NCBI GenBank assembly: GCA_002722735.1
Contig: PBMR01000003.1
Coordinates: 41,637 to 87,526 of the forward strand
Source of the DNA: Methanobacteriota archaeon
GTDB lineage: Archaea > Thermoplasmatota > Poseidoniia > Poseidoniales > Thalassarchaeaceae
DNA: 45,890 nt
Direction of reading: 5' to 3'
Below, piece by piece: positions 27,424 through 43,605 of this stretch. Position 1 is the first letter of the stretch. Every line of letters starts with the position of its first letter. The notes under the pieces are model-generated. The model was not told the origin of the DNA and did not search any database. It was given only the letters and a program-made list of their open reading frames with translations. The position numbers and the translations under genes were made by a program.

Positions 27424-28005
27424 TCATCCCAACTCTTGTATCAGTTTGTGGATTTTGTACGGAAGGAGGGATCTGTTCACAGGGGTCACTTCGAGAATCC
27501 TCGCATCGTCCCGCCTTCTGATGTCCTGCAGAAGGGGGTGGCGGCTCTTTTTGTGAAGTGTCATCAAGGTCGGAAGGTCACTATTCAGTGCCATCCTAAC
27601 CGCATTCACGAAGCCCTCGCTCTCGACAGTGAACTTCCCAACTTCATCAATTACCATGATTTCACAATTTCCAATGCTGTCTAGTATCGCCGGGACACCG
27701 ACTCGATCAATTTCACTGGGATCAATTCCAAAGCCCAGAATTCGGTTTCGGGAGTCTATTTTCTTGTGCGCCATAACGCCCTTCTCGCCAGTTAGTATGT
27801 TGACGCAAGCATATCCAACTCTCTCTCCATCCTCTACGACGGCCTCGCACCTCATCCCTCCAATGATGTGCTCAGGAGAAATATGACCACGCGATCGACC
27901 GTATCCCCCCCCATCCGCCGAAATCATATCGATGACCTTCTGCAGTACTGCGGACTTACCAGATCTAGGAAGGCCAGTGATGCCGATTTTAGGATTAATT
28001 CCCAT
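27424..28005 (-). CDS. THEP1-like nucleoside-triphosphatase
   Basis: A 193-residue P-loop NTPase. Walker A is GITGLPRSGKSAVL at residues 8-21, Walker B is IMVIDEVGKF, and a conserved GFGIDPSEID segment follows the first strands. This fits the archaeal/bacterial NTPase_1 (THEP1) family, small NTPases with slow, broad-specificity hydrolysis whose in vivo role is unclear. ATG 28005 is preferred over ATG 28029 because an aggag ribosome binding site lies 6-7 bases before it. A TATA-like ttaatatc read on the minus strand lies about 60 bases upstream, near 28064-28072. Confidence 0.88.
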   Translation of the reverse strand: MGINPKIGITGLPRSGKSAVLQKVIDMISADGGGYGRSRGHISPEHIIGGMRCEAVVEDGERVGYACVNILTGEKGVMAHKKIDSRNRILGFGIDPSEIDRVGVPAILDSIGNCEIMVIDEVGKFTVESEGFVNAVRMALNSDLPTLMTLHKKSRHPLLQDIRRRDDARILEVTPVNRSLLPYKIHKLIQELG

Positions 28006-28137
28006 ATTTACTCTCCTCTGAATGTTCACTCCCGCGACAGGAACGCCTAGCGTATGCGAAGCACCGATATTAATTCATTTGGATTAGAGGGGCAGCGTAT
28101 TTCCGGAACGAGGAAACGAAAATCCGAACTTAGTAAA

Positions 28138-30120
28138 TCAGATTTCACTATCGTTCCCCATTAGTGAAACCGGCCCTACTCCCTCAAGAGGTGGGAAGGG
28201 CAGCATCTCAATTTCGTAGTTGTTGACATTGTTGTTTGCCGCCCATGCTTTGGACCAGAGATTCAAACCCTCGGAGTTTAGATGCGATGCGAGGGCTGCT
28301 AAACCCCCCTCAAGATTTCCAAACTCAGCAACCAGTCTTTCGACGACCTGATTTGGCAGATCGAGGAAACTCACAGAGTTTCCGAGTACGCACCCGGAGG
28401 GTATGACTACCCAGAGGAGACGCCTCTCCATTTGGGGGTTTATCATCGCCCGGCAGATTATTCTCGGTGGCCCCAGCATGTCTGAGGGGCCATTCCACAC
28501 TGCATGACTCCACTGGACGCCCTCCGGAACATCCGCGAAGGCGGGGTGTCGAAGACTCACTTCGCCATCATTCAGCTCTATGTGCGTACCGCGAACGAAA
28601 GGAGACCCACTCGAACCGGTGCCCCAATCTGAAATGTGGCTTGACCAACTTCCACGATCCACTTCACCCGCCCTCACGCGAATAGCCTTGCCACTAGGAT
28701 TCAGCCAAGTGCCCTCTTCGGTAAGACGTGGTTGATCTGCCAAGGTGCCGATAGCTCTCAGCGTCTTATTCCGTTCGTGCAAGGACTTGGGCATTTTTGG
28801 CACAGCCCAAGAGGCATCAGTCCAAACCGACCACGGACCACGCTCCAGCTCAAGGAAGGGCGCGCCTTTGTCGAGCCCCTTTCGAGCAGAAATGTCCCTC
28901 GAATGTAGCGGGCCAAAACTCGTGAGGACCTCAGTAGTACCGGCGACAGTAATACCCAGTACGGAAACACCCTGTGCTCCAACAAGCGGGAGTTGTTGAT
29001 TATCGGGGAATGACCACACGCTATCCCACTCGTTCTGCAAGACTATCAGTTTCCTCAATGGCGCGCTGCTTTTCTCACGAAGGACAGACTCAGGGACAAC
29101 CATTCTGACCCTCCCTCCCTTCTGGCTCAGTTGTAGGGATCGCTCGATGTACAGCCTGTACAGGTTGACATTGCCCTTGATTGCAGAGAAGCGGAGACTA
29201 CCGTCAGGACCTTTGATCTGACGGAGTTCCTTGGACAAGCCTTTGCGCAACTGGCTACCTTCGGGATGACCTCGAAACCGGTCCTTGATCCGAAGCCATG
29301 GAGGCCTTGAAACAAGGAGCCTCGGACTTTCGTTCCACGGCCACTCTCCCCGTAGGGGATCAGCGCATCTAACGTTGCTCTCGATAATGAGATTGGCTTC
29401 GGATCTTCCAATGAGTGATTCGCTCCCCTCTCCTTCTAGATCAACCAGTCTCAGGCGTGCGAGTACGATGAGAAGTCGCTTGCGAGCGCTCTCCACGGCG
29501 ATATCCGAGACATCCACCAGTTGGAACCCTTCTAGAAGTCTGAGCGTGTCCTCCTTCCGCTGCTGGGCATCCATCCCACTGCATCTGTCCGCGTGCATCC
29601 TAATGATGCGATCAGCGAATAGGCCCGCTCCCACAGAGGGGTCAGCGAAAGGAAGGGGAATTCCAGACAGGGTGTGAGACTCGTCCGATTCTTGACTGTA
29701 ATCATCTTCGAATGATTGCCCTCTGATGCTTTCATTGAACTGCTCAGCGAAGACTCTGAAACTTGGCGGCAGTGCAGTGAGCGATAGCGTAGCCGGGGGC
29801 TCTTTCTTTCGGCTTCTGCCGTGGTGCAACTCGTCGCATAGTATGGCATCGACGAACCTCACCGGCGTGGCATAGACGCCACGAGGCGAACGCCCGTCAC
29901 TCTCGGCTTCGTACCTTGCTAGAAGATGATCAAGTACGGAACCAGGATCGCTCAGCAACCCCGCCGGTAAGGTGGGCCACCCCCTAGGGAGAGTAGCGGC
30001 AACGGGTTGCCCCTGATTGGTCGCTAGAAGCCAAGCGTCTAGCCAGCTCTCGATTTGCTCGACCCTGTCAGGGCATTCGTGATCGAGCCTTGCATACCAG
30101 CCTGAAGTCTCGCTCGTCAT
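28138..30120 (-). CDS. Degenerate Eco57I-like N6-adenine DNA methyltransferase homologue with TRD-like C-terminus
   Basis: A 660-residue protein with the layout of Eco57I/type IIG methyltransferases. Motif X-like YATPVRFVDAIL lies at residues 83-94. The SAM-binding motif I, FADPSVGAG, lies at 158-166, and acidic strand 2 in FQLVDVSDIAV follows. The motif IV position reads LLVSRPPWLRIKDRF (271-275), where (N/D/S)-PP-(Y/F/W) is expected: the residue before PP is Arg. Later KGGRVRMVVPESVL and SSAPLRKLIVL match the post-IV region. The C-terminus (LNSEGLNLWSKAWAANN, EIEMLPFPP) looks like a TaqI-type specificity domain. There is no nuclease domain. ATG 30120 has a TATA-like aaaataga about 28 bases upstream; TTG 30156 is the alternative. 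Confidence 0.85.
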   Translation of the reverse strand: MTSETSGWYARLDHECPDRVEQIESWLDAWLLATNQGQPVAATLPRGWPTLPAGLLSDPGSVLDHLLARYEAESDGRSPRGVYATPVRFVDAILCDELHHGRSRKKEPPATLSLTALPPSFRVFAEQFNESIRGQSFEDDYSQESDESHTLSGIPLPFADPSVGAGLFADRIIRMHADRCSGMDAQQRKEDTLRLLEGFQLVDVSDIAVESARKRLLIVLARLRLVDLEGEGSESLIGRSEANLIIESNVRCADPLRGEWPWNESPRLLVSRPPWLRIKDRFRGHPEGSQLRKGLSKELRQIKGPDGSLRFSAIKGNVNLYRLYIERSLQLSQKGGRVRMVVPESVLREKSSAPLRKLIVLQNEWDSVWSFPDNQQLPLVGAQGVSVLGITVAGTTEVLTSFGPLHSRDISARKGLDKGAPFLELERGPWSVWTDASWAVPKMPKSLHERNKTLRAIGTLADQPRLTEEGTWLNPSGKAIRVRAGEVDRGSWSSHISDWGTGSSGSPFVRGTHIELNDGEVSLRHPAFADVPEGVQWSHAVWNGPSDMLGPPRIICRAMINPQMERRLLWVVIPSGCVLGNSVSFLDLPNQVVERLVAEFGNLEGGLAALASHLNSEGLNLWSKAWAANNNVNNYEIEMLPFPPLEGVGPVSLMGNDSEI

Positions 30121-30141
30121 GGTACGCACATCGCCCAAAAC

Positions 30142-30155
30142 CCCATCTATTTTCA
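30142..30155 (-). promoter_or_regulatory. TATA-like element before the methyltransferase-like gene
   Basis: Read on the minus strand, tttgaaaatagatg lies 22-35 bases before ATG 30120, the spacing of an archaeal TATA box for a leaderless transcript. It supports ATG 30120 as the start and a separate promoter within the two-gene unit. Confidence 0.4.
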
Positions 30156-30183
30156 AAGGTTGTATGGCAGAAATGGTTGTGTG

Positions 30184-30792
30184 TCAACCATCAATCCCGA
30201 AGATGTCTTGGTCTATCTCGGCCACTAGTCTTCTCTGTAGCAGCCATGCCAAAGCCTCGTCGATCTCATCCACCCTAATGCCCATGGGTTCCAGAGCATC
30301 ACTGATTTCGTCAAAATGCAAGCCAGTGTTGTTCGCGTCCACCTCTTCGATCGTATTCATGATGTGCTCTGAGATGATGGTGAGAAGAGGGTCGTCATCT
30401 GTTCCCAGTGCGCCCAAATCAACCATTGGGATGGACTCTTCCGGCTCTTGGTTCTCAAAACTAGTTTTACGGGGAGTCGGCCCATACACGTCGAAGAGGT
30501 TTCTTTGGTGCGGATCGGTCCAAGAGGCTCCTTGTGCAGCCTCTCGCTTCCTCTTTAATCTCTTCACTAGAGCCTCTATTCTGTGAAGTCGTTGTTCAAG
30601 CCTGAGTCGTTCTCTCCCCAAGTGAACCTCGACCAGTTCAAGCTCTTCCGTCGCCCTCTCGTCAAGCCACTTGGACAGATTCCATTGGGGGTCGAGTCGC
30701 AGCATCGTCTCCCAGAGTTGTGCAACTGAATCTGGGAGTGTTCTGACGTCAATTCTTGGTCCCTCCTTCCCTTCTCCAGGAGCCCGGTCCAT
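30184..30792 (-). CDS. Coiled-coil protein with C-terminal winged-helix-like segment, hypothetical
   Basis: A 202-residue soluble protein. Residues about 48-86 form a long Arg/Lys/Glu-rich coiled coil (ELELVEVHLGRERLRLEQRL and RLKRKREAA). A central linker is Pro/Asp-rich. The C-terminal 60 residues (HFDEISDALEPMGIRVDEIDEALAWLLQRRLVAEID) have the helix-turn-helix-wing rhythm of a small wHTH domain; this is a weak pattern match. It is the upstream partner of the methyltransferase-like gene, with 63 bases between its stop and the downstream ATG, on the same strand. I recognise no family. A DNA-binding or oligomerisation subunit would fit. Confidence 0.7.
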   Translation of the reverse strand: MDRAPGEGKEGPRIDVRTLPDSVAQLWETMLRLDPQWNLSKWLDERATEELELVEVHLGRERLRLEQRLHRIEALVKRLKRKREAAQGASWTDPHQRNLFDVYGPTPRKTSFENQEPEESIPMVDLGALGTDDDPLLTIISEHIMNTIEEVDANNTGLHFDEISDALEPMGIRVDEIDEALAWLLQRRLVAEIDQDIFGIDG

Positions 30793-30863
30793 GTGCTGAG
30801 TCTGCCTCTCGACCGTCTATGAATTATCGCACTCCAATTCCAGATTATTCATGGGTCGTATTG

Positions 30864-32078
30864 ATGAATGAAAAGCAGGTGCCACAACCAATGGCACCCT
30901 ATCGATTGACCATCTTGCCCGGTGACGGCACGGGCCGAGAGGTAATTGTGGAGGCCAGGCGAGTCATTGATGCATTCGAGCAGTTTGGCCCACTCTCGTT
31001 CGACATCACCGAGATACCTTGCGGCGGTCAATACTATCTGGAAACAGGGAAGGAGTGGCCTGACGGCTCGTTCAAGCATTGCCGAGACAATTCCGATGCC
31101 ATTCTAGTTGGAGCCGTGGGCTGGCCGGACTCCCACTTGCCCAATGGCGATGTAGCGGGGGCTCAGGTTCTCCTCGGCTTGAGATCCGCCCTCGACCTCT
31201 ATGCCAACGTGAGACCTGTCAAGTTATTCCACGGGGTCCACCACAAGGTGCACGGAGTGTTCAAAGACGTCTGGGACCCCAATCTGGTTGATATGGCCCT
31301 AGTTCGAGAGAACACCGAAGGACTCTATCATTCTCTGCTTCGCCGATCCGGCCGGGCTGCTCAGGGAGGTGAGAAGGACGAACCCATCACCATCGATCAT
31401 TTTCCCGGACTGAACGGGCACGTTGCGTGGGACGCTAGGCCAATTTCTCGTAAGGGCAGCGAGCGAGTCATCAGGTTCGCCTTCAATCTTGCAGAGCGCC
31501 GCGAGTCTCGCATTGGGATGCCCCAGAAGGTGACATGTGTTGACAAGAGCAACGTTACCAGGGGGTGCCGCCTTTTCAGGGAGGTCTTCAGGGAGGTCGC
31601 GAGAGAGCACGAAGGCGTCGAATCCAACGAGGCCTATATCGACGCGTTCACAATGTGGCTGGTCCGAAATCCGGAGGAATTGAACGTCGTCGTGCTTCCA
31701 AATATGTTTGGTGACATTGCTACCGATCTCGCTTCAGTCTTGCAAGGTGGTATGGGAATGGCAGCAAGTGCCAATATTGGGGATAAGCACATGCTGTTTG
31801 AACCAGTTCACGGCTCCTCGCCAAAGCATGCTGGACAAAACAAGGTCAACCCCATCGCTGCCATCTCCTCAGTCCAACTGATGTTCGAATACCTCGGCTC
31901 GCGTCATGACGATCCCGACGCCGCGACCTGCTCAAACGTATTAGAGCAGGCAATTACTGGGCACCTCGCGTCAGGCGGCCCCGTGACATATGATATCGGA
32001 GGCAAGGCATCTACTACTGAAGTCGGTGAGGCCATAGCCAAGCGCTGTGAAGATCTGCTCAAGAAACAGTATGCCTAG
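30864..32078 (+). CDS. Isocitrate/isopropylmalate dehydrogenase-family protein
   Basis: A 404-residue beta-decarboxylating dehydrogenase. Seen: [66 protein letters not shown], the catalytic Lys region [13 protein letters not shown], and the Asp-rich metal site [35 protein letters not shown] forms the NAD(P) site. It belongs to the LeuB/Icd superfamily and could be isopropylmalate, isocitrate, homoisocitrate or tartrate dehydrogenase; no leu genes are nearby to decide. ATG 30864 is preferred, with the family N-terminus at MAPYRLTIL (30891). It converges with the phosphopantothenate synthetase gene, overlapping its end by 4 bases. Confidence 0.92.
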
Positions 32079-35316: not shown

Positions 35317-36486
35317 TTATGAGGAATTGGCCGAATCGCTCCCCTCTCCCTCGACTACCCGGGCCTCGGGATTTGACGAGTCTTGAAATCGGCGCCTCTG
35401 TTTGGCCCTGATGTATTTCAGAGGGTGCGTCATCCATTCTTGGTCGCATAGCGAATCGTCACCCAGCTGAACAGGGCATCTGGCATTCGTCTTCAGCGCC
35501 GAGCACCCGTGGGGGGTATAACCACGTTCGTATATCTGACTAACCTGATAGGAAGTGGTCTCAACCTCGTAGTCAGGGGCATTGGCAAAGAAGTTGCAGG
35601 CCTGTTCACGAGCGAGTCCGAGGGCACTCGAGAATGCCGCTATGAACACTCTCCCCACGTGGTTGACGTTTACCCCTTGGTTCAACTCGGACACTGCCGA
35701 TTCGAAGCACGGTGGCCAATCCTCACGAATAGCAGCGGTCATGGGCATCTCGGCCTCGACACGTTCCGAAAGAAGACCCGTGATACGCTCAACGGGCTCA
35801 GAGAACCTAGCTGCGAACTCATCGTCCATCCTTTCCATCCGGTCTAGGCAACTCCGATGGAGATGCTCGCGAATCCTTTCCTTAATCAGCCGCGCAGTCC
35901 TCTCTCTGCTTGATTCTCCAACTCCAGCATCCAAGCATACCCATCCATCTCGCACTGGTCTATTTACCAGCCTCCAGTAGTTGCCCGATATTCGCGGGCA
36001 CAACTCTATGAAATCAGCTAGTGGGACCCAGAACTCAACGTCTCTGGTACCATTGCCATCTGCTCTTATGTCAGAGAGGTAGGAACCAGAGATTTCAGGA
36101 AAACTCTCGCTGTCGATTCCTAGGAGTCGATCGGCCCTGCTTGCCTCCCCCTCAATCCATCTCGCAAGCAGCCTTTCGTCGAACGAGGCACAAACAACCA
36201 GCATCGCGTGGAGGAACGAGAGGGCCTCCGTCATCCTCCCGATTTCGGTAGATATGTCAATGGTTGACGCCTCTTCGATTCCACCGTCCTGAAGCACCGA
36301 ATCCACTAATCTGACCCTCCCTCTAATCCTTACATCCTCGAGCCACGGAGCATCGATCAACTCCTCGATTGAGATTCCGTTCTCCTCCAGTATACCCTTG
36401 ATGAATTCACTGCCCTGGGGAAGAAAGGGATAACGAGCAAGCATCCCCCTGTCCTCGATTCGCGGAAGGATTAGCGGCATGGGCAT
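35317..36486 (-). CDS. priL: DNA primase large subunit PriL
   Basis: The PriL subunit of the archaeal/eukaryotic primase, about 389 residues. The N-terminal part has YPFLPQGSEFIKGILEENG. Four cysteines suit the [4Fe-4S] cluster of the C-terminal domain: one in PPCFESAVSEL, one in YTPHGCSAL, one in TNARCPVQ and one in DSLCDQEW. AFSSALGLAREQACNFFANAPDY precedes the YQVSQIYERGYTP loop that begins the cluster site. PriL binds the initiating nucleotides with PriS, which is not in the window. ATG 36486 or 36480 is preferred over the 36516 start, which overlaps the divergent mptE region. It leads the run priL-DUF373-pcc1-nadC-phosphopantothenate synthetase. Confidence 0.92.
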   Translation of the reverse strand: MPMPLILPRIEDRGMLARYPFLPQGSEFIKGILEENGISIEELIDAPWLEDVRIRGRVRLVDSVLQDGGIEEASTIDISTEIGRMTEALSFLHAMLVVCASFDERLLARWIEGEASRADRLLGIDSESFPEISGSYLSDIRADGNGTRDVEFWVPLADFIELCPRISGNYWRLVNRPVRDGWVCLDAGVGESSRERTARLIKERIREHLHRSCLDRMERMDDEFAARFSEPVERITGLLSERVEAEMPMTAAIREDWPPCFESAVSELNQGVNVNHVGRVFIAAFSSALGLAREQACNFFANAPDYEVETTSYQVSQIYERGYTPHGCSALKTNARCPVQLGDDSLCDQEWMTHPLKYIRAKQRRRFQDSSNPEARVVEGEGSDSANSS

Positions 36487-36542
36487 AGATGGTAATTCTC
36501 CGCGAGGGTTCTTCAATACTCACCGAGCCCTTCCACTGGAGC

Positions 36543-38703: not shown

Positions 38704-41700
38704 GTGAGGAGAGCAGCGGTCCTAATCGCCATGCTGTTCATCCTGCCGCTACTCGCACACACCCCGGCCTACTCAGTGGATTCACGCGCTCAGTCAACTT
38801 CGGGAAGGTCCTTGGAAGCCGATGTCGCAGTGACTGGCATCAACATCACGACACCATCGGTCATGGTCGGTGGGACCCCCACTCTCGCACCACAGACTCA
38901 CATCATTCGTGTTAACATACTGAACCTCGGCGGCTCTTCAGCAGACGGGAATCTAACCCTAGAGGCCAATACCGGCTCTGGTTATGCGGAGGTAGATGTA
39001 AGGACGGTGAGCATCAACTCAGGGCAGCAAGAGGTTCACCTGCTCTACTGGGACGCTACCACGGTGGGCACCGGATTCGGATTGAAGGCAGTCTGGGACG
39101 TCAACTTGTCGACCTCGACCGATTCCGACTCGGGCAATGACGAGATGGCCATAACTGGTATCAGTGTCATGGCGGTCGAGGATGCAGCACCCATCGCGGA
39201 TTCCTTACCAGACAATGGGGATACGCTGGCCAGAGCGCAGTGGGTGGGCGGGATTACCGTGGTCAACACCGGCAACCAACCGGTCAACGTGACTGCCCAG
39301 CTGACCCTGACCTCGACATCAACGGCGGCTCAGACGCAGGTCATATCGACCACAGCTACCGCACCATCCGGCAGCCTCGCCAACCCACCGGATCCTCAGA
39401 ACATCTCCCTCAGCTTCGACGGCACGAGCCTAGAGGGGACTTACACCTTAGCGGGAAGCCTACTGATCACAGGTCCCTCCGGGACTCCGAGCACAGTGAC
39501 CATCGAGTCACGAACTGTCTCGTTCATCGCGCTGAGGGCCACGCTGATAGCCGCGAGCAACAGGAACATAGATCCCGGCGGCGTGACGACTCTCAATTTC
39601 ATTCTGCAGAACTCCGGTGACGAGGGGGACAACTTCACCGTCACCCAGAGCAACACCTCCTCCCCCGGTGAGTATTGGGCCAACATCTCGGCGGGCATCC
39701 ATACCGAAGACGACCCGCTGTTCGTCGACTCAGGAGAAACCGTGGCTATCCAGGTCCCCGTCGAGATTCCATCAACCGCAGCAATGTCCGAATCCGTGCG
39801 AATCACCATCACCGTGCAGAGCCTCGCCGCCGGCTACGTGCTCGATGCTTCCTCTATAGTCATGGCAGGAGGCTTGTACCAGTCCGAGATAACTCAGAAT
39901 CACAGCCACGATCTTGGCGCTGAGTACGCGAATATCACCCCTGGAGACCCCTTGACACTTGACTACACCCTGAAGAACACCGGGACCGCCCCCGCCCAGT
40001 TCCAAATTTTCGTGGCCTCCACCCAGTCAGTCCCCTACTGGACAATCCACTCACCAGTGACATTGACCGACGTGATGATAGCCAATGAAACCAGGACGAT
40101 CCCCGTCACCATCACCACTCCCACCCTGCAGATGCCATTGAACCCCGCTTGGAATATCGAAGCCGGCCTCCAGATACAGATCGGCATCCAAGCCATTCCC
40201 GTCGAGGGGGGCCTGCCCTCGTCCAACCTGACGATGATTATCGTCGACGGCATGGTGGAGATGGATCTCGAGATCTTGGGACAGCCTCGCGATGTCTCCG
40301 TCGATGAGCTATTGTCCGGGTCTTCGGACAGATACGTCGATTTCCAAGTGCAGATGGTGCACAACCTCGGCTCCAACAACAGCCAGGCCCAAGTGACTTT
40401 GGCGCCGACGGTAGCCTCCGGCGATACGACTGGAATCACATTCACCCCAGACGTGAGTGGCAAGGAGAATGAGAGGTTCTACGCATCAATTACCCCGAGC
40501 ACCATGGACCTGTCTCCCGGGGAGATTGGGTACGGCGTTGTATCGATCACGCATCAGCACAAAAGCAGCCAAAGCCACCCCTATCCTGCCGCGGGTAGGT
40601 TCACCTTCGACTTCACGACGACCTCTGATTGGGGGGACTTCAATGGCACCCTTTCACAGGACGACTCAGCGGAGATAACCTACAGGGTCGAGAAGTTCAG
40701 GGCGGCCGAACTTGCATCAGGCGGCATCTTCACGGGAGACCCCGGCACCGCCATACCCGCCACGATGTCCCTGAAGAACACCGGCAACGACGCGGACAAC
40801 TTCTCCATCGGCTTCTTGCCAATCGAGGGCTGGGACATTCAAGTCAGCAAGCCCGCTGTGAACGCCCTGAAGTCGAGGACCAACCTCTATCCCTTCGTAG
40901 AGGGCCATGATGACTCGGATGTGACGTCGTTCACTATCACGGCCACCCCCCCATCAACTGCCAGCGCTGACGAAACGCACGAGATTTGGGTCTATGCCAA
41001 CTCGACTGATACCGGCGAGTTGCTATCATACGCCCCTGCGTACTTCCAACTTACCGAGCTCGTTTCAGCGGAGCTAAGCCCGGCAAACGCCACGGCCGTC
41101 CTCGACAGGCTCGGCCAAACTACCATCATGATCTTGCTCAACAACAGCGGAAACTCGAACAAGACCTTCGACTTGACGCTCGACAATCACAATCCCCTCA
41201 ATATCCGACTTTCCTTCGCCGACGACGGAACCGTCGTCCTCTCCAAGACACAAACCGTCGCCCCGGCTAGCCAGGCCATCGTCCGCGTATATGCCCTCGC
41301 CGGGACCACGGCGAGGGCCGATGATGTGAACAAGTTCGAAGTCGTGGTGTCGAGCAATGGGACCGAGTTGGACCGTAGCGGCATCAACGTCCAAGTGAAC
41401 CCATTCCATTTCATCATCTTCAAGATGAACGAGGAGTACAATGCGATTCCCGGGGGCACCATCCAAGTCCCTATCTTGTTGGAAAATAGTGGGAACCTCC
41501 TGGAGGTGGTCAACGTCTCAGCACTCGCTCCGGTGGGCTGGAACCAGTCTGCGAACGACTCTGCCATAGCAATCGAGCCGGGTGCTGAGGGCGCATGGGT
41601 GAAACTGAGCATCACCCTGCCACCTCTCGAAGCAGGCGAGAGCCTCGCTGCGGACAAGGTCTTCGAGATTCCCATACAAGTGCTGAACATCTCCGACAAC

Positions 41701-43605
41701 ATCGTGATTGGCAGTTCGAACATAACCGTCACAATCCTCCCAGTCTTCGCGTTGAACGTCCTCGCTCAACCAGATAGGATTGCTGTCCTGCCTAACAGTG
41801 ACAGGTCGGTGCAGTACGAGATTCAGAACGTCGGCAACGCTCCAATGACGATCTCCTTCCAATGGTCACTCGATGAGGACGAGCCGGGAAGATTCGGCAT
41901 CTCTCTGACAGCACCGAATAACATTGTCAACCTGAATATCGGAGACACTGTAGCTCTTCGAGTGGACGTATCCCCATTGAAGGACGATCACTACCAGAAC
42001 GAGGATGCCGCGCTATCCATCATCTTCTCTCCGATGGGGGTGGAATTGGATCCAATTGTGTTAACGACACCCATTCAGGTCGTCCGGGTCCAAACTGATG
42101 ACGTGTACGAACTGGACGCCGACGGGCCTTTCACCTGCGGCGCGTCCTGCGTCGAGATCGCGATTCCATGGCAGTACGTGCCCACGGGCATCCCGAACCC
42201 ATCGTCCGTGGCCTTCAACCTCTCCTTGGCTGAAGTACCTGAAAGACGAGGAGAGGAGGGGCCCATCAACTATGGGCAGTACCCCGATACGATTTGGGCC
42301 TTCGACATCGACGGACATTGCCTCATGGTTTCCTCCGAGCAACCTCCCGGCATCGCGCAGCAAGAGGGCTCGTCCTGCGACTCGGGCTTCGACTTGGACA
42401 CAGTGACCCCCTACGGGACGGGCACCATAGTCCTACAAGTGATCATCCCGGACAAGAAGAAGCTCGCGCCCAAGGACGGATGGGACATCAGCCTCCTGCT
42501 GAAGAATCCCGTAGAGGACGACCAATGCGATTGTGATGATTTCTGGACGGAATTCACCGTGAAACTGAGAATGTCCGAATCGTCCGACCCGCTGATAGAG
42601 AGCATTTCGTTCAATGGGACCAGCGTCGAGGGATCGCAGACCTCGGTCAACGTGGTGATAATCAATGCCGGCAACGCGATCATGCCAACCGACACGCTCG
42701 TGACCCTGCTATGCCAAGGGGACTACGCAAGAGTGACTTCCGCCCCGTCGATGAGCATCCCTGCATTGTCCGCCGGCGGCAATTTCAGCGCCACGTGGTC
42801 TGTGACCACCGAACCCCTACCATGGTGGAGCACCTCCGAGCCCTTCGACTGCGAAGCCTCATTGTCGGGCTCGATTTCGACCGTAGGTGGGAACAACGCC
42901 TCCAATGACAACTCAGAGGTAGCCTTGGAAATATCCTCCTGGGGGCCACCCGACCTGGATGTGAATCTCAGCGGAGTCATAATCGGCCTGCCAATAACCA
43001 TCATACTCGGCCTACTCCTGCTTTTCTTCGCCTTCTCGTTCCTGCGGAAGGGCATGGACGAGCAGCCGAGCCATCTGCACATGTCGGCATACATCGCCGC
43101 AGCGTCTTTCGGAACCATATCTCTCAGCAACCTGGCTTCGTGGTCAATCGCGGCAGGAGCAGGGGCATCTATCGCCTTCTCTGGTGTCGTGGCATGGATA
43201 AGCTCGGCTGAGTTACAGACCATTCACGACGACAGGAAAAAGGCACGAATCGGGGCTCGCTCCGTCTTGGAAGACCACGACAAGGAGCAGGCCAACACCC
43301 GAAAGGAACTCCGAGCCATCGTCTCCTGCGCCCCTTACGCATTCCTCCCCTTCGTCCTCATCTCGCCCGCGCTGGCCACAGACACAGACCCCATCTCACT
43401 GGTGGCGCTGGTGCTGTTCCTCATCGCCTCCCCGATCCTGGTTCACCTGATACTGAGATTCCTCGACAAGTCGTATGACAGGCTATACGGGGAACTGGCC
43501 GAGATAGAGCTCAGGGCTATCAAGATTAAGAGAATCCTAGGGAGCGTCGGCGCGAGGTCGGGAGCCGGGGCCTCGGAGCGGGAATACCGGACGGGAGGAG
43601 ACTGA
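38704..43605 (+). CDS. Giant multi-domain surface protein with C-terminal membrane region
   Basis: A 1633-residue protein with an N-terminal signal peptide (VLIAMLFILPLLAHTPAYS after Arg-Arg). At least eight CARDB/NEW3/Ig-like extracellular beta domains follow; phrases such as LNLGGSSADGNLTLEA, LNFILQNSGDEGDNFTV, DYTLKNTGTAPAQFQIF, MSLKNTGNDADNFSIGF and ILLENSGNLLEVVNV recur about every 120-150 residues. Asn-X-Ser/Thr sequons are abundant. A cysteine-containing domain lies near residues 1140-1390. From about residue 1424 there are four or five membrane helices with a basic cytoplasmic helix. It starts at GTG 38704 with a ggagg ribosome binding site. The next gene begins at the stop codon, so an operon with the archaellins is likely. 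No known function; an S-layer or filament-anchoring role is inference. Confidence 0.9.
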   Translation: MRRAAVLIAMLFILPLLAHTPAYSVDSRAQSTSGRSLEADVAVTGINITTPSVMVGGTPTLAPQTHIIRVNILNLGGSSADGNLTLEANTGSGYAEVDVRTVSINSGQQEVHLLYWDATTVGTGFGLKAVWDVNLSTSTDSDSGNDEMAITGISVMAVEDAAPIADSLPDNGDTLARAQWVGGITVVNTGNQPVNVTAQLTLTSTSTAAQTQVISTTATAPSGSLANPPDPQNISLSFDGTSLEGTYTLAGSLLITGPSGTPSTVTIESRTVSFIALRATLIAASNRNIDPGGVTTLNFILQNSGDEGDNFTVTQSNTSSPGEYWANISAGIHTEDDPLFVDSGETVAIQVPVEIPSTAAMSESVRITITVQSLAAGYVLDASSIVMAGGLYQSEITQNHSHDLGAEYANITPGDPLTLDYTLKNTGTAPAQFQIFVASTQSVPYWTIHSPVTLTDVMIANETRTIPVTITTPTLQMPLNPAWNIEAGLQIQIGIQAIPVEGGLPSSNLTMIIVDGMVEMDLEILGQPRDVSVDELLSGSSDRYVDFQVQMVHNLGSNNSQAQVTLAPTVASGDTTGITFTPDVSGKENERFYASITPSTMDLSPGEIGYGVVSITHQHKSSQSHPYPAAGRFTFDFTTTSDWGDFNGTLSQDDSAEITYRVEKFRAAELASGGIFTGDPGTAIPATMSLKNTGNDADNFSIGFLPIEGWDIQVSKPAVNALKSRTNLYPFVEGHDDSDVTSFTITATPPSTASADETHEIWVYANSTDTGELLSYAPAYFQLTELVSAELSPANATAVLDRLGQTTIMILLNNSGNSNKTFDLTLDNHNPLNIRLSFADDGTVVLSKTQTVAPASQAIVRVYALAGTTARADDVNKFEVVVSSNGTELDRSGINVQVNPFHFIIFKMNEEYNAIPGGTIQVPILLENSGNLLEVVNVSALAPVGWNQSANDSAIAIEPGAEGAWVKLSITLPPLEAGESLAADKVFEIPIQVLNISDNIVIGSSNITVTILPVFALNVLAQPDRIAVLPNSDRSVQYEIQNVGNAPMTISFQWSLDEDEPGRFGISLTAPNNIVNLNIGDTVALRVDVSPLKDDHYQNEDAALSIIFSPMGVELDPIVLTTPIQVVRVQTDDVYELDADGPFTCGASCVEIAIPWQYVPTGIPNPSSVAFNLSLAEVPERRGEEGPINYGQYPDTIWAFDIDGHCLMVSSEQPPGIAQQEGSSCDSGFDLDTVTPYGTGTIVLQVIIPDKKKLAPKDGWDISLLLKNPVEDDQCDCDDFWTEFTVKLRMSESSDPLIESISFNGTSVEGSQTSVNVVIINAGNAIMPTDTLVTLLCQGDYARVTSAPSMSIPALSAGGNFSATWSVTTEPLPWWSTSEPFDCEASLSGSISTVGGNNASNDNSEVALEISSWGPPDLDVNLSGVIIGLPITIILGLLLLFFAFSFLRKGMDEQPSHLHMSAYIAAASFGTISLSNLASWSIAAGAGASIAFSGVVAWISSAELQTIHDDRKKARIGARSVLEDHDKEQANTRKELRAIVSCAPYAFLPFVLISPALATDTDPISLVALVLFLIASPILVHLILRFLDKSYDRLYGELAEIELRAIKIKRILGSVGARSGAGASEREYRTGGD
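43594..43600 (+). promoter_or_regulatory. Ribosome binding site for the 351-residue protein
   Basis: ggaggag, 6 bases before ATG 43607, lies inside the end of the giant protein's gene and matches the archaeal anti-Shine-Dalgarno. It supports translation of the downstream gene as part of the same mRNA. Confidence 0.6.

Follow-up and report, generated by a model that had tools for sequence, protein, structure and literature searches.

Our analysis concerns a methyltransferase (MTase)-like gene and the gene next to it on a 45,890-nucleotide stretch of DNA from a Thalassarchaeaceae archaeon (GenBank assembly GCA_002722735.1, contig PBMR01000003.1, positions 41,637 to 87,526; hereafter the window, whose own numbering is used below). 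The MTase belongs to a form of its family in which the catalytic Asn of motif IV is replaced by Arg or Lys, and this Arg/Lys form is best explained, with a probability of roughly 0.6, as a domesticated orphan DNA adenine MTase that would no longer methylate and would now be maintained as a non-catalytic factor. A sequence-only reading of this DNA had proposed a methylation-dead yet functional protein, and this still appears the best reading, since the Asn is replaced in a protein that is maintained and preserves motif I and the aromatic residue of PPW. The features of the MTase gene are the following, motif positions being taken from the translation.

28138 to 30120, minus strand: MTase-like protein of 660 amino acids, with its ATG at 30120 (open reading frame, Pfam, alignment and structural model)
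29863 to 29874, minus strand: motif X-like YATP, residues 83-86
29623 to 29643, minus strand: motif I DPSVGAG, residues 160-166, the S-adenosylmethionine (SAM) site
29296 to 29310, minus strand: motif IV SRPPW, residues 271-275, with the Arg272 codon at 29305-29307
28171 to 28683, minus strand: C-terminal recognition domain, residues about 480-650, its extent predicted from the model and from Eco57I-type proteins

In N6-adenine MTases, the residue before PP and the carbonyl of Pro accept hydrogen bonds from the amino group of adenine. Asn, Asp or Ser is needed at this position, before PP and an aromatic residue; the window MTase has Arg272 there, as the sequence-only reading had pointed out, and a scan of the translated sequence found a single PPW and neither PPY nor PPF, so that a normal motif IV is absent from the rest of the protein. 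We infer that N6 methylation is lost, because Arg or Lys cannot accept these hydrogen bonds and puts a positive charge beside the sulfonium of SAM. The hydrogen-bond acceptor role agrees with the account given for METTL3 in the consulted part of PMC5023411. The Arg272 codon is real rather than the product of chance or of a sequencing error, because 59 unique relatives share Arg or Lys at this place. The SAM-binding motif I and its acidic residues are present in the window protein.

The scaffold around this altered motif is that of a DNA MTase. Pfam matched Eco57I (PF07669) alone (1e-6, 29.4 bits against a cut-off of 25.3, residues 312-374) and, in line with what had been read from the letters, found no nuclease or helicase domain in the protein. 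The AlphaFold2 model (pLDDT 83.6, pTM 0.82) retrieved CamA (1e-16), M.BseCI, BrxX/PglX and TaqI in Foldseek; the superposition with CamA is modest (TM 0.47/0.55, root-mean-square deviation about 8, about 12% identity) and that with TaqI reaches a TM of 0.65 by TaqI length. On this model the window MTase has an Eco57I/TaqI/CamA-type fold, with a catalytic domain followed by a C-terminal recognition domain, and the Eco57I-type scaffold with YATP, DPSVGAG and a recognition domain that had been proposed is thus borne out, the motifs by the translation and the fold by Pfam, AlphaFold2 and Foldseek. Sequence likeness to the Eco57I family over residues 312-374 is joined by likeness to the Alw26I/Eco31I/Esp3I MTases (TIGR02987), the best stretch of which covers residues 483-647; the score of 59.2 bits lies far under the curated cut-off of 353.5, and no restriction partner is seen beside the window MTase. 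The PglX model NF033452 gave only 11.1 bits against a cut-off of 500. CamA is an orphan adenine MTase without a nuclease, and CamA, M.BseCI and M.TaqI all have an N-type motif IV. These three enzymes share the gamma-class catalytic and C-terminal recognition domains of the window protein (for CamA of Clostridioides difficile, PDB 7rfm and 7lnj), but they methylate DNA and the window protein has Arg in motif IV instead.

The replacement is confined to one part of the family. We take the order to be Ca. Poseidoniales and its families f1 and f2 to be Thalassarchaeaceae and Poseidoniaceae, respectively, and refer to genera as g1, g2 and so on. Position 272 could be scored in 107 of 108 unique long MTase sequences and is Asn in 47, Asp in one, Arg in 49 and Lys in 10, with no other residue and with PPW intact in every one. 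The 17 scored f2 sequences, which represent all eight f2 genera with the gene, have Asn (16) or Asp (1); in f1 there are 31 Asn, 49 Arg and 10 Lys, with Asn in g2, g9, g10 and g5 and Arg or Lys in g1, g6, g7, g8 and g11. Scored members of 12 of the 17 genera with the MTase thus have a normal NPPW or, once, DPPW. Conservation of SRPPW, for which a survey had been proposed, therefore holds within one clade in its Arg/Lys sense (59/107) and gives way to Asn or Asp elsewhere (48/107). In a maximum-likelihood tree of 63 representatives, from which the motif IV columns had been removed, the Arg/Lys proteins form one clade (support 97/94) with the N-type genus g5 as sister, so that one change at 272 suffices; the chosen outgroup is not a single branch, some f2 rows having been omitted, and f1 and f2 rows separate fully (100/99). 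An approximately unbiased (AU) test on the MTase data rejects a grouping of g5 with g8 (p 0.0006) and, less strongly, of g5 with g6 (p 0.0145). On a rooted reading of the MTase tree, a single ancestral replacement of Asn by Arg or Lys would be the simplest history. The one DPPW, the other canonical form, lies in an f2 genome of genus g18 (L047:4973-6958).

Selection on the changed protein remains strong. Median dN/dS is 0.060 (0.022-0.168) over 93 Arg/Lys pairs and 0.041 (0.024-0.094) over 55 Asn/Asp pairs, calculated by the Nei-Gojobori method for non-independent pairs of 75-98.5% identity and dS of 0.1-2. At 272 the Arg/Lys clade uses each of the six Arg codons and both codons for Lys, which indicates that the codon drifted while the charge stayed; from this codon use and the dN/dS of about 0.06 we conclude that, as far as sequences can tell, the basic residue is actively kept. 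Across both forms 124 positions are near-invariant, and the sharpest switch between the forms is residue 272 itself, D71E and T313A alone also passing the same test, both more mildly. PPW (with Trp275), the surroundings of motif IV, Asp160, Gly166, Asn317, Asn319 and Tyr321 are unchanged in the 63 representatives, Asp254 is nearly so, and Asp203 is kept in 61 of them. Defining a relaxed site as one at least 95% conserved in Asn/Asp forms, with no residue reaching 70% in Arg/Lys forms, we found 25, of which 16 fall within residues 480-625, compared to 52 of 205 conserved sites (P 1.4e-5, for a region picked after seeing the sites and with relatedness uncorrected). By position and model this region is the recognition domain, and DNA recognition is probably altered or loosened in the Arg/Lys clade. 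The earlier proposal of a sequence-specific complex is accordingly doubtful: the recognition domain is there, and most of the relaxed sites cluster in it.

Retention is also strict. Five genera count as Arg/Lys on the strength of their scored members, residue 272 having been read in some of their genomes and not in all. Of their 80 genomes, 75 have an MTase match; the other five are also without the partner described below, as would be expected if their assemblies are incomplete, and wherever the partner was detected (74 genomes) the MTase is there too. Outside these genera the MTase is found in 131 of 238 genomes, and of 206 genomes with the partner no fewer than 75 lack the MTase.

Taken as a whole, the family belongs to the core genes of Ca. 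Poseidoniales: it is an orphan passed on vertically, with losses in some lineages. Of the order's 318 genomes 206 have a match, as do 28 of the 35 good ones, and 17 of 22 genera are represented; a second match in the same genome is rare, and identity among 28 aligned rows is 42-85%. The match is absent from g3, g4, g12, g14 and g17 and found in one of 27 g13 genomes. The best 80 of 222 confirmed stretches belong to Ca. Poseidoniales, Thalassarchaeaceae/Thalassarchaeum, Marine Group II or the unspecific 'Euryarchaeota', 'euryarchaeote' and 'Thermoplasmatota', and matches in 389 genomes drawn from the phylum outside the order are short, covering at most about 130 positions. At the sensitivity used, neither IMG/VR nor phage records yielded a relative, and a viral origin is rejected on this basis. 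Nor is the distribution the patchy, mobile one typical of restriction-modification (RM), being nearly single-copy, order-wide and of conserved gene order. Pfam detected no endonuclease, RNase H aside, among the eight flanking window proteins, the neighbours in relatives having been only partly scanned; these eight are metabolic or housekeeping proteins, with no BREX neighbours. The suggestion of an RM module losing function does not survive this comparison, given a core vertical orphan gene without a nuclease domain and the strong selection on the Arg/Lys form, and a recent RM relic is likewise rejected by distribution, gene order and selection.

The gene before the MTase, separated from it by 63 bases, encodes the partner, whose features and immediate surroundings are as follows.

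30184 to 30792, minus strand: partner protein of 202 amino acids (open reading frame), found in all 22 genera
30526 to 30678, minus strand: long helix of the partner, residues 39-89, a predicted coiled coil (model)
30484 to 30507, minus strand: residues 96-103 of the partner, QRNLFDVY, a PIP-box-like motif where a linker of low model confidence begins (translation)
30187 to 30396, minus strand: winged-helix C-terminus, residues 133-202 (Foldseek and sub-threshold Pfam)
27424 to 28029, minus strand: NTPase_1 gene, downstream of the MTase and its right-hand neighbour in the relatives examined
30756 to 32078, plus strand: isocitrate/isopropylmalate dehydrogenase gene, the neighbour on the left, which diverges from the partner

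The two-gene unit proposed for this locus is a by-product of deletion or rearrangement that was later kept, because the partner spans all genera and because an island and a TerB pair have been lost where the two genes are adjacent. The inferred ancestral order is isocitrate/isopropylmalate dehydrogenase (on the opposite strand), partner, a variable island, two TerB genes (PF05099), MTase, NTPase_1, a small membrane protein, GcvH and RNase H. In those f2, g2, g9 and g10 loci that we examined, the TerB pair immediately precedes the N-type MTase (L042:6988-7995, L050:7082-7971 and relatives); in the Arg/Lys genera and g5 both island and TerB pair are gone and the partner adjoins the MTase, an adjacency seen, among the loci examined, only in g1, g5, g6, g7, g8 and g11. 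TerB occurs in 189 of the 318 genomes and 15 of the 22 genera, and the same scan did not detect it in g1, g3, g5, g6, g7, g8 or g11. The MTase is the only gene missing from the order in g4 and g13 loci, and two g12 loci lack the MTase with one TerB recognised. The TerB pair is rejected as an obligate helper of the active form, since TerB stays in the MTase-less g4, g12, g14 and g17 and none was found in the N-type g5. An obligate gene pair is rejected at the level of the order, the partner being present in 280 of 318 genomes and in every one of the 22 genera, five of which have no MTase match; a unit, conserved together, holds inside the adjacent clade only, where the partner also evolves more slowly. 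With the tree fixed and four control genes as reference, the relative rate of the partner is 1.77 on the 26 branches where the two genes are adjacent, 3.13 on the 5 branches of g3, where the MTase was lost, and 2.96 on the 21 branches of f2, g13, g12 and g4, a contrast with a Mann-Whitney p of 0.0016 for branches that are not independent. This slower evolution beside the MTase is the sole evidence here that hints at joint action.

The partner itself was described from the sequence as having a coiled coil and a winged helix-turn-helix-like end, and its model (pLDDT 76, pTM 0.36) agrees, showing a long helix that is followed by a disordered linker and, at the C-terminus, a winged helix. The best Foldseek match of the latter is the winged helix of archaeal Rpa2 bound to primase (PDB 9f26 chain C, E 0.013; see also 9f2a), with Pfam RPA_C at 0.006, below its cut-off. 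The likeness is weak and the partner is not an RPA: its model consists of helices and one C-terminal winged helix, without an OB fold. The consensus of the PIP box, the motif that binds PCNA, is Qxx[ILM]xx followed by two aromatic residues. All 28 partners compared have QxNLFDx[YF] at the edge of the linker, the first aromatic position of the pattern being V, C, I, A, S or T, and in XPG_I/FEN1-type proteins from four genomes of the order the C-terminus reads [QK]x[ST]LF[DS]F; because it resembles these FEN1-type tails, the partner motif looks like a putative PIP box. FEN1 was found in four of five further genomes of the order and not in the window genome or G311. Overall the partner, which no genus of the order lacks, may be an as yet uncharacterised accessory protein of the replisome. 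A gene for the primase large subunit (PF04104) lies at 35317-36516 of the window, about 4.5 kb from the partner gene.

The history suggested by these observations would start from an active-type orphan enzyme, which would have lost its TerB neighbours and then its catalytic Asn, the changed protein being maintained for a long time thereafter. The pair would have formed when the island and TerB pair between both genes disappeared; after the replacement, the basic residue and nearly all scaffold residues were kept and part of the recognition domain was freed. The Arg/Lys protein would fold around a SAM-type pocket and would probably act as a DNA-associated scaffold or as a factor dependent on SAM or S-adenosylhomocysteine (SAH). 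More tentatively, it may work with the partner, which through its PIP-box-like motif and RPA-like winged helix could anchor it at the replication fork. The fullest version of this idea, a basic-site pseudo-enzyme tethered to PCNA by the partner and acting as a replication-coupled, SAM/SAH-sensing DNA clamp factor, a non-methylating part of replication, appears to us unlikely.

Several observations weigh against a non-catalytic factor with a single origin and a dedicated partner. The four-gene species tree leaves g5 unresolved (support 52-62) and leans towards g5 with g8, which makes a reversal or two origins possible. The N-type g5 retains the MTase as strictly as the Arg/Lys genera do (16/18, the other two also without the partner), so that retention follows the arrangement of the locus, or adjacency, and not Arg272; nor is the relative rate of the MTase slower in Arg/Lys forms (1.60) than in g5 (1.19) or f2 (1.47). 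In some members of the clade PP, MP or IQ stands in place of the TP of motif X, and of 35 Arg/Lys rows 4 have lost Gly164 and 2 have lost Asp203. The intact SAM site that had been read from the window therefore stands for motif I of that protein and not for the clade, in parts of which SAM binding may be weaker. Genus g3 is without the island and TerB pair just as the Arg/Lys genera are, and its three loci have lost the MTase as well. As to the partner, it persists without the MTase in five genera, the match of its winged helix is weak, the slower adjacent rate leans mainly on one matched lineage (the five branches of g3), and some adjacent branches are fast, one in g1 most of all (0.66 versus 0.09 in controls). 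Finally, we know of no assay of Arg or Lys at the motif IV position in this fold, and activity on another substrate is possible.

That last point leads to a different reading, according to which the Arg/Lys form is still a SAM-dependent MTase, acting on another base position, RNA or protein, with residue 272 positioning or charging the acceptor. The restriction of 272 to R or K with all codons in use, the constancy of PPW and of the SAM-site and scaffold residues listed above (Asp160, Gly166, Asn317, Asn319, Tyr321 and, nearly, Asp254), and a recognition domain partly relaxed alongside, as a change of substrate would produce, all speak for it; but the positive charge beside the sulfonium is unfavourable and the erosion of motif X in parts of the clade is unexpected if catalysis is needed. 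To our knowledge there is no amino-MTase with a basic residue at this position, which also speaks against it, and a literature search on inactive NPPY-type enzymes turned up a single, unrelated paper; we consider changed chemistry unlikely. That the protein is an active DNA N6-methyladenine (m6A) MTase after all, with Arg or Lys tolerated or another residue as hydrogen-bond acceptor, is less likely still. The surroundings of motif IV and Trp275 are kept in all 63 representatives, and a methylated GGTAG of unexplained origin in an MGIIA genome, as reported in the part of PMC9516812 consulted, suggests that the family may make real marks in its N-type state; however, N or D is strictly kept outside the clade (47 N and 1 D of 48), and freed recognition-domain sites do not fit an unchanged DNA enzyme.

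The family's distant structural likeness to BrxX/PglX, together with the TerB genes beside N-type forms other than those of g5, could be taken to mean that the protein is a dead BREX- or PglX-like DNA sensor against viruses. The 11 bits obtained with the PglX model, the metabolic or housekeeping flanking proteins with RNase H as sole nuclease, and a vertical, nearly always single-copy inheritance with no IMG/VR or phage relative at the sensitivity used make such a defence role very improbable. To plain decay, in which an orphan MTase would be disappearing following loss of its catalytic residue, we give hardly any weight: the lineages without a match (g3, g4, g12, g14, g17 and all but one of the g13 genomes) and the erosion of motif X in some Arg/Lys members are what it would predict, but the dN/dS of about 0.06, the restriction of 272 to R or K by all codons, and the presence of the MTase in 74 of 74 Arg/Lys-genus genomes with the partner are not.

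A domesticated, non-methylating MTase would have a parallel in METTL14, the pseudo-methyltransferase partner of METTL3, in which, according to the consulted part of the source, EPPL replaces the DPPW type of motif and the fold is kept in a non-catalytic role (PMC5023411). Loss of the catalytic motif with retention of the fold is also seen in the Arg/Lys form; unlike METTL14, which in that same account is without the aromatic residue and the SAM pocket, the Arg/Lys form keeps PPW and most SAM-site residues. METTL14 also pairs with an active relative, whereas no PF01555 or PF02384 MTase was matched in the window's genome, which is 80% complete, and its only PF07669 gene is the MTase described here; a METTL3-like active mate is therefore not evident, and a METTL3/14-like heterodimer with another amino-MTase was rejected on these grounds. 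Within the archaea, persistent orphan MTases such as the CATTC m6A MTase of Natrialbales are described in the consulted part of PMC10609329, the main text of which does not contain the term 'Poseidoni'. They are likewise kept vertically across a whole order; the groups there come with modified motifs, and here an entire clade is without the catalytic residue. With the catalytic residue lost, the fold kept and purifying selection in force, the Arg/Lys form answers to the description of a pseudo-methyltransferase, the loss of methyl transfer itself being what we infer. No description of this MTase turned up among the listings of papers that link Poseidoniales, Marine Group II or Thalassarchaeaceae to methyltransferases, in a library with little of the subscription literature, nor in the consulted part of PMC9258230.

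Prokaryotic DNA MTases tend to be interpreted either as a sign of active marking or as remnants of restriction systems, and this family would offer a candidate pseudo-enzyme with a readable history, the order of events being legible from living genera and the N-type sister g5 serving as a built-in control. It is also a warning that Pfam matches alone should not be used to predict methylation in this abundant group of ocean archaea. As for the N-type members, the MGIIA genome SHIPPO_PRO_101 has methylated CGCG and GGTAG, with no MTase assigned to GGTAG in the part of the report consulted (PMC9516812). The N-type proteins are candidates for this GGTAG MTase, and the asymmetric motif would suit them, which we regard as a lead only. 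The observed/expected ratio of GGTAG, 0.92 in f2, 0.89 in g2, g9 and g10 and 1.04 in Arg/Lys loci, is uninformative on avoidance as a trace of methylation, and composition gave this idea no support. Other amino-MTases do occur in genus g1, with PF01555 matches in 8 of 28 genomes (6 over the cut-off) and PF02384 matches in 3 of 28, several of them with internal stop codons; these genomes include G292, G297, G298 and G315.

The MTase frame can be read further upstream, to an in-frame TTG at 30156 (28138-30156, minus strand, 672 amino acids). The ATG at 30120 is the more sensible start because conservation in an alignment of 28 members sets in only at residues 7-8. About 28-37 bases before this ATG, at 30148-30157, the sequence TTTGAAAATA could by eye be an archaeal TATA box, and the MTase may have its own promoter and a leaderless transcript.

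In genomes that retain it, the variable island between partner and TerB pair measures about 1.2-5.4 kb (L150:2652-8014; also L152 2726-7277 and L160 1343-5939, both numbered with the MTase on the plus strand). By appearance, the L050 island holds dehydrogenase-like and sugar-nucleotidyltransferase-like genes, and contig ends fall near the island in several g2, g9 and g10 genomes. The block of membrane protein, GcvH and RNase H genes is inverted in L042 and L043 (g10) relative to most other loci examined. Elsewhere in the window, positions 38704-43605 encode a protein of 1633 amino acids whose sole match is a sub-threshold one to the Ig-like domain FixG_C.

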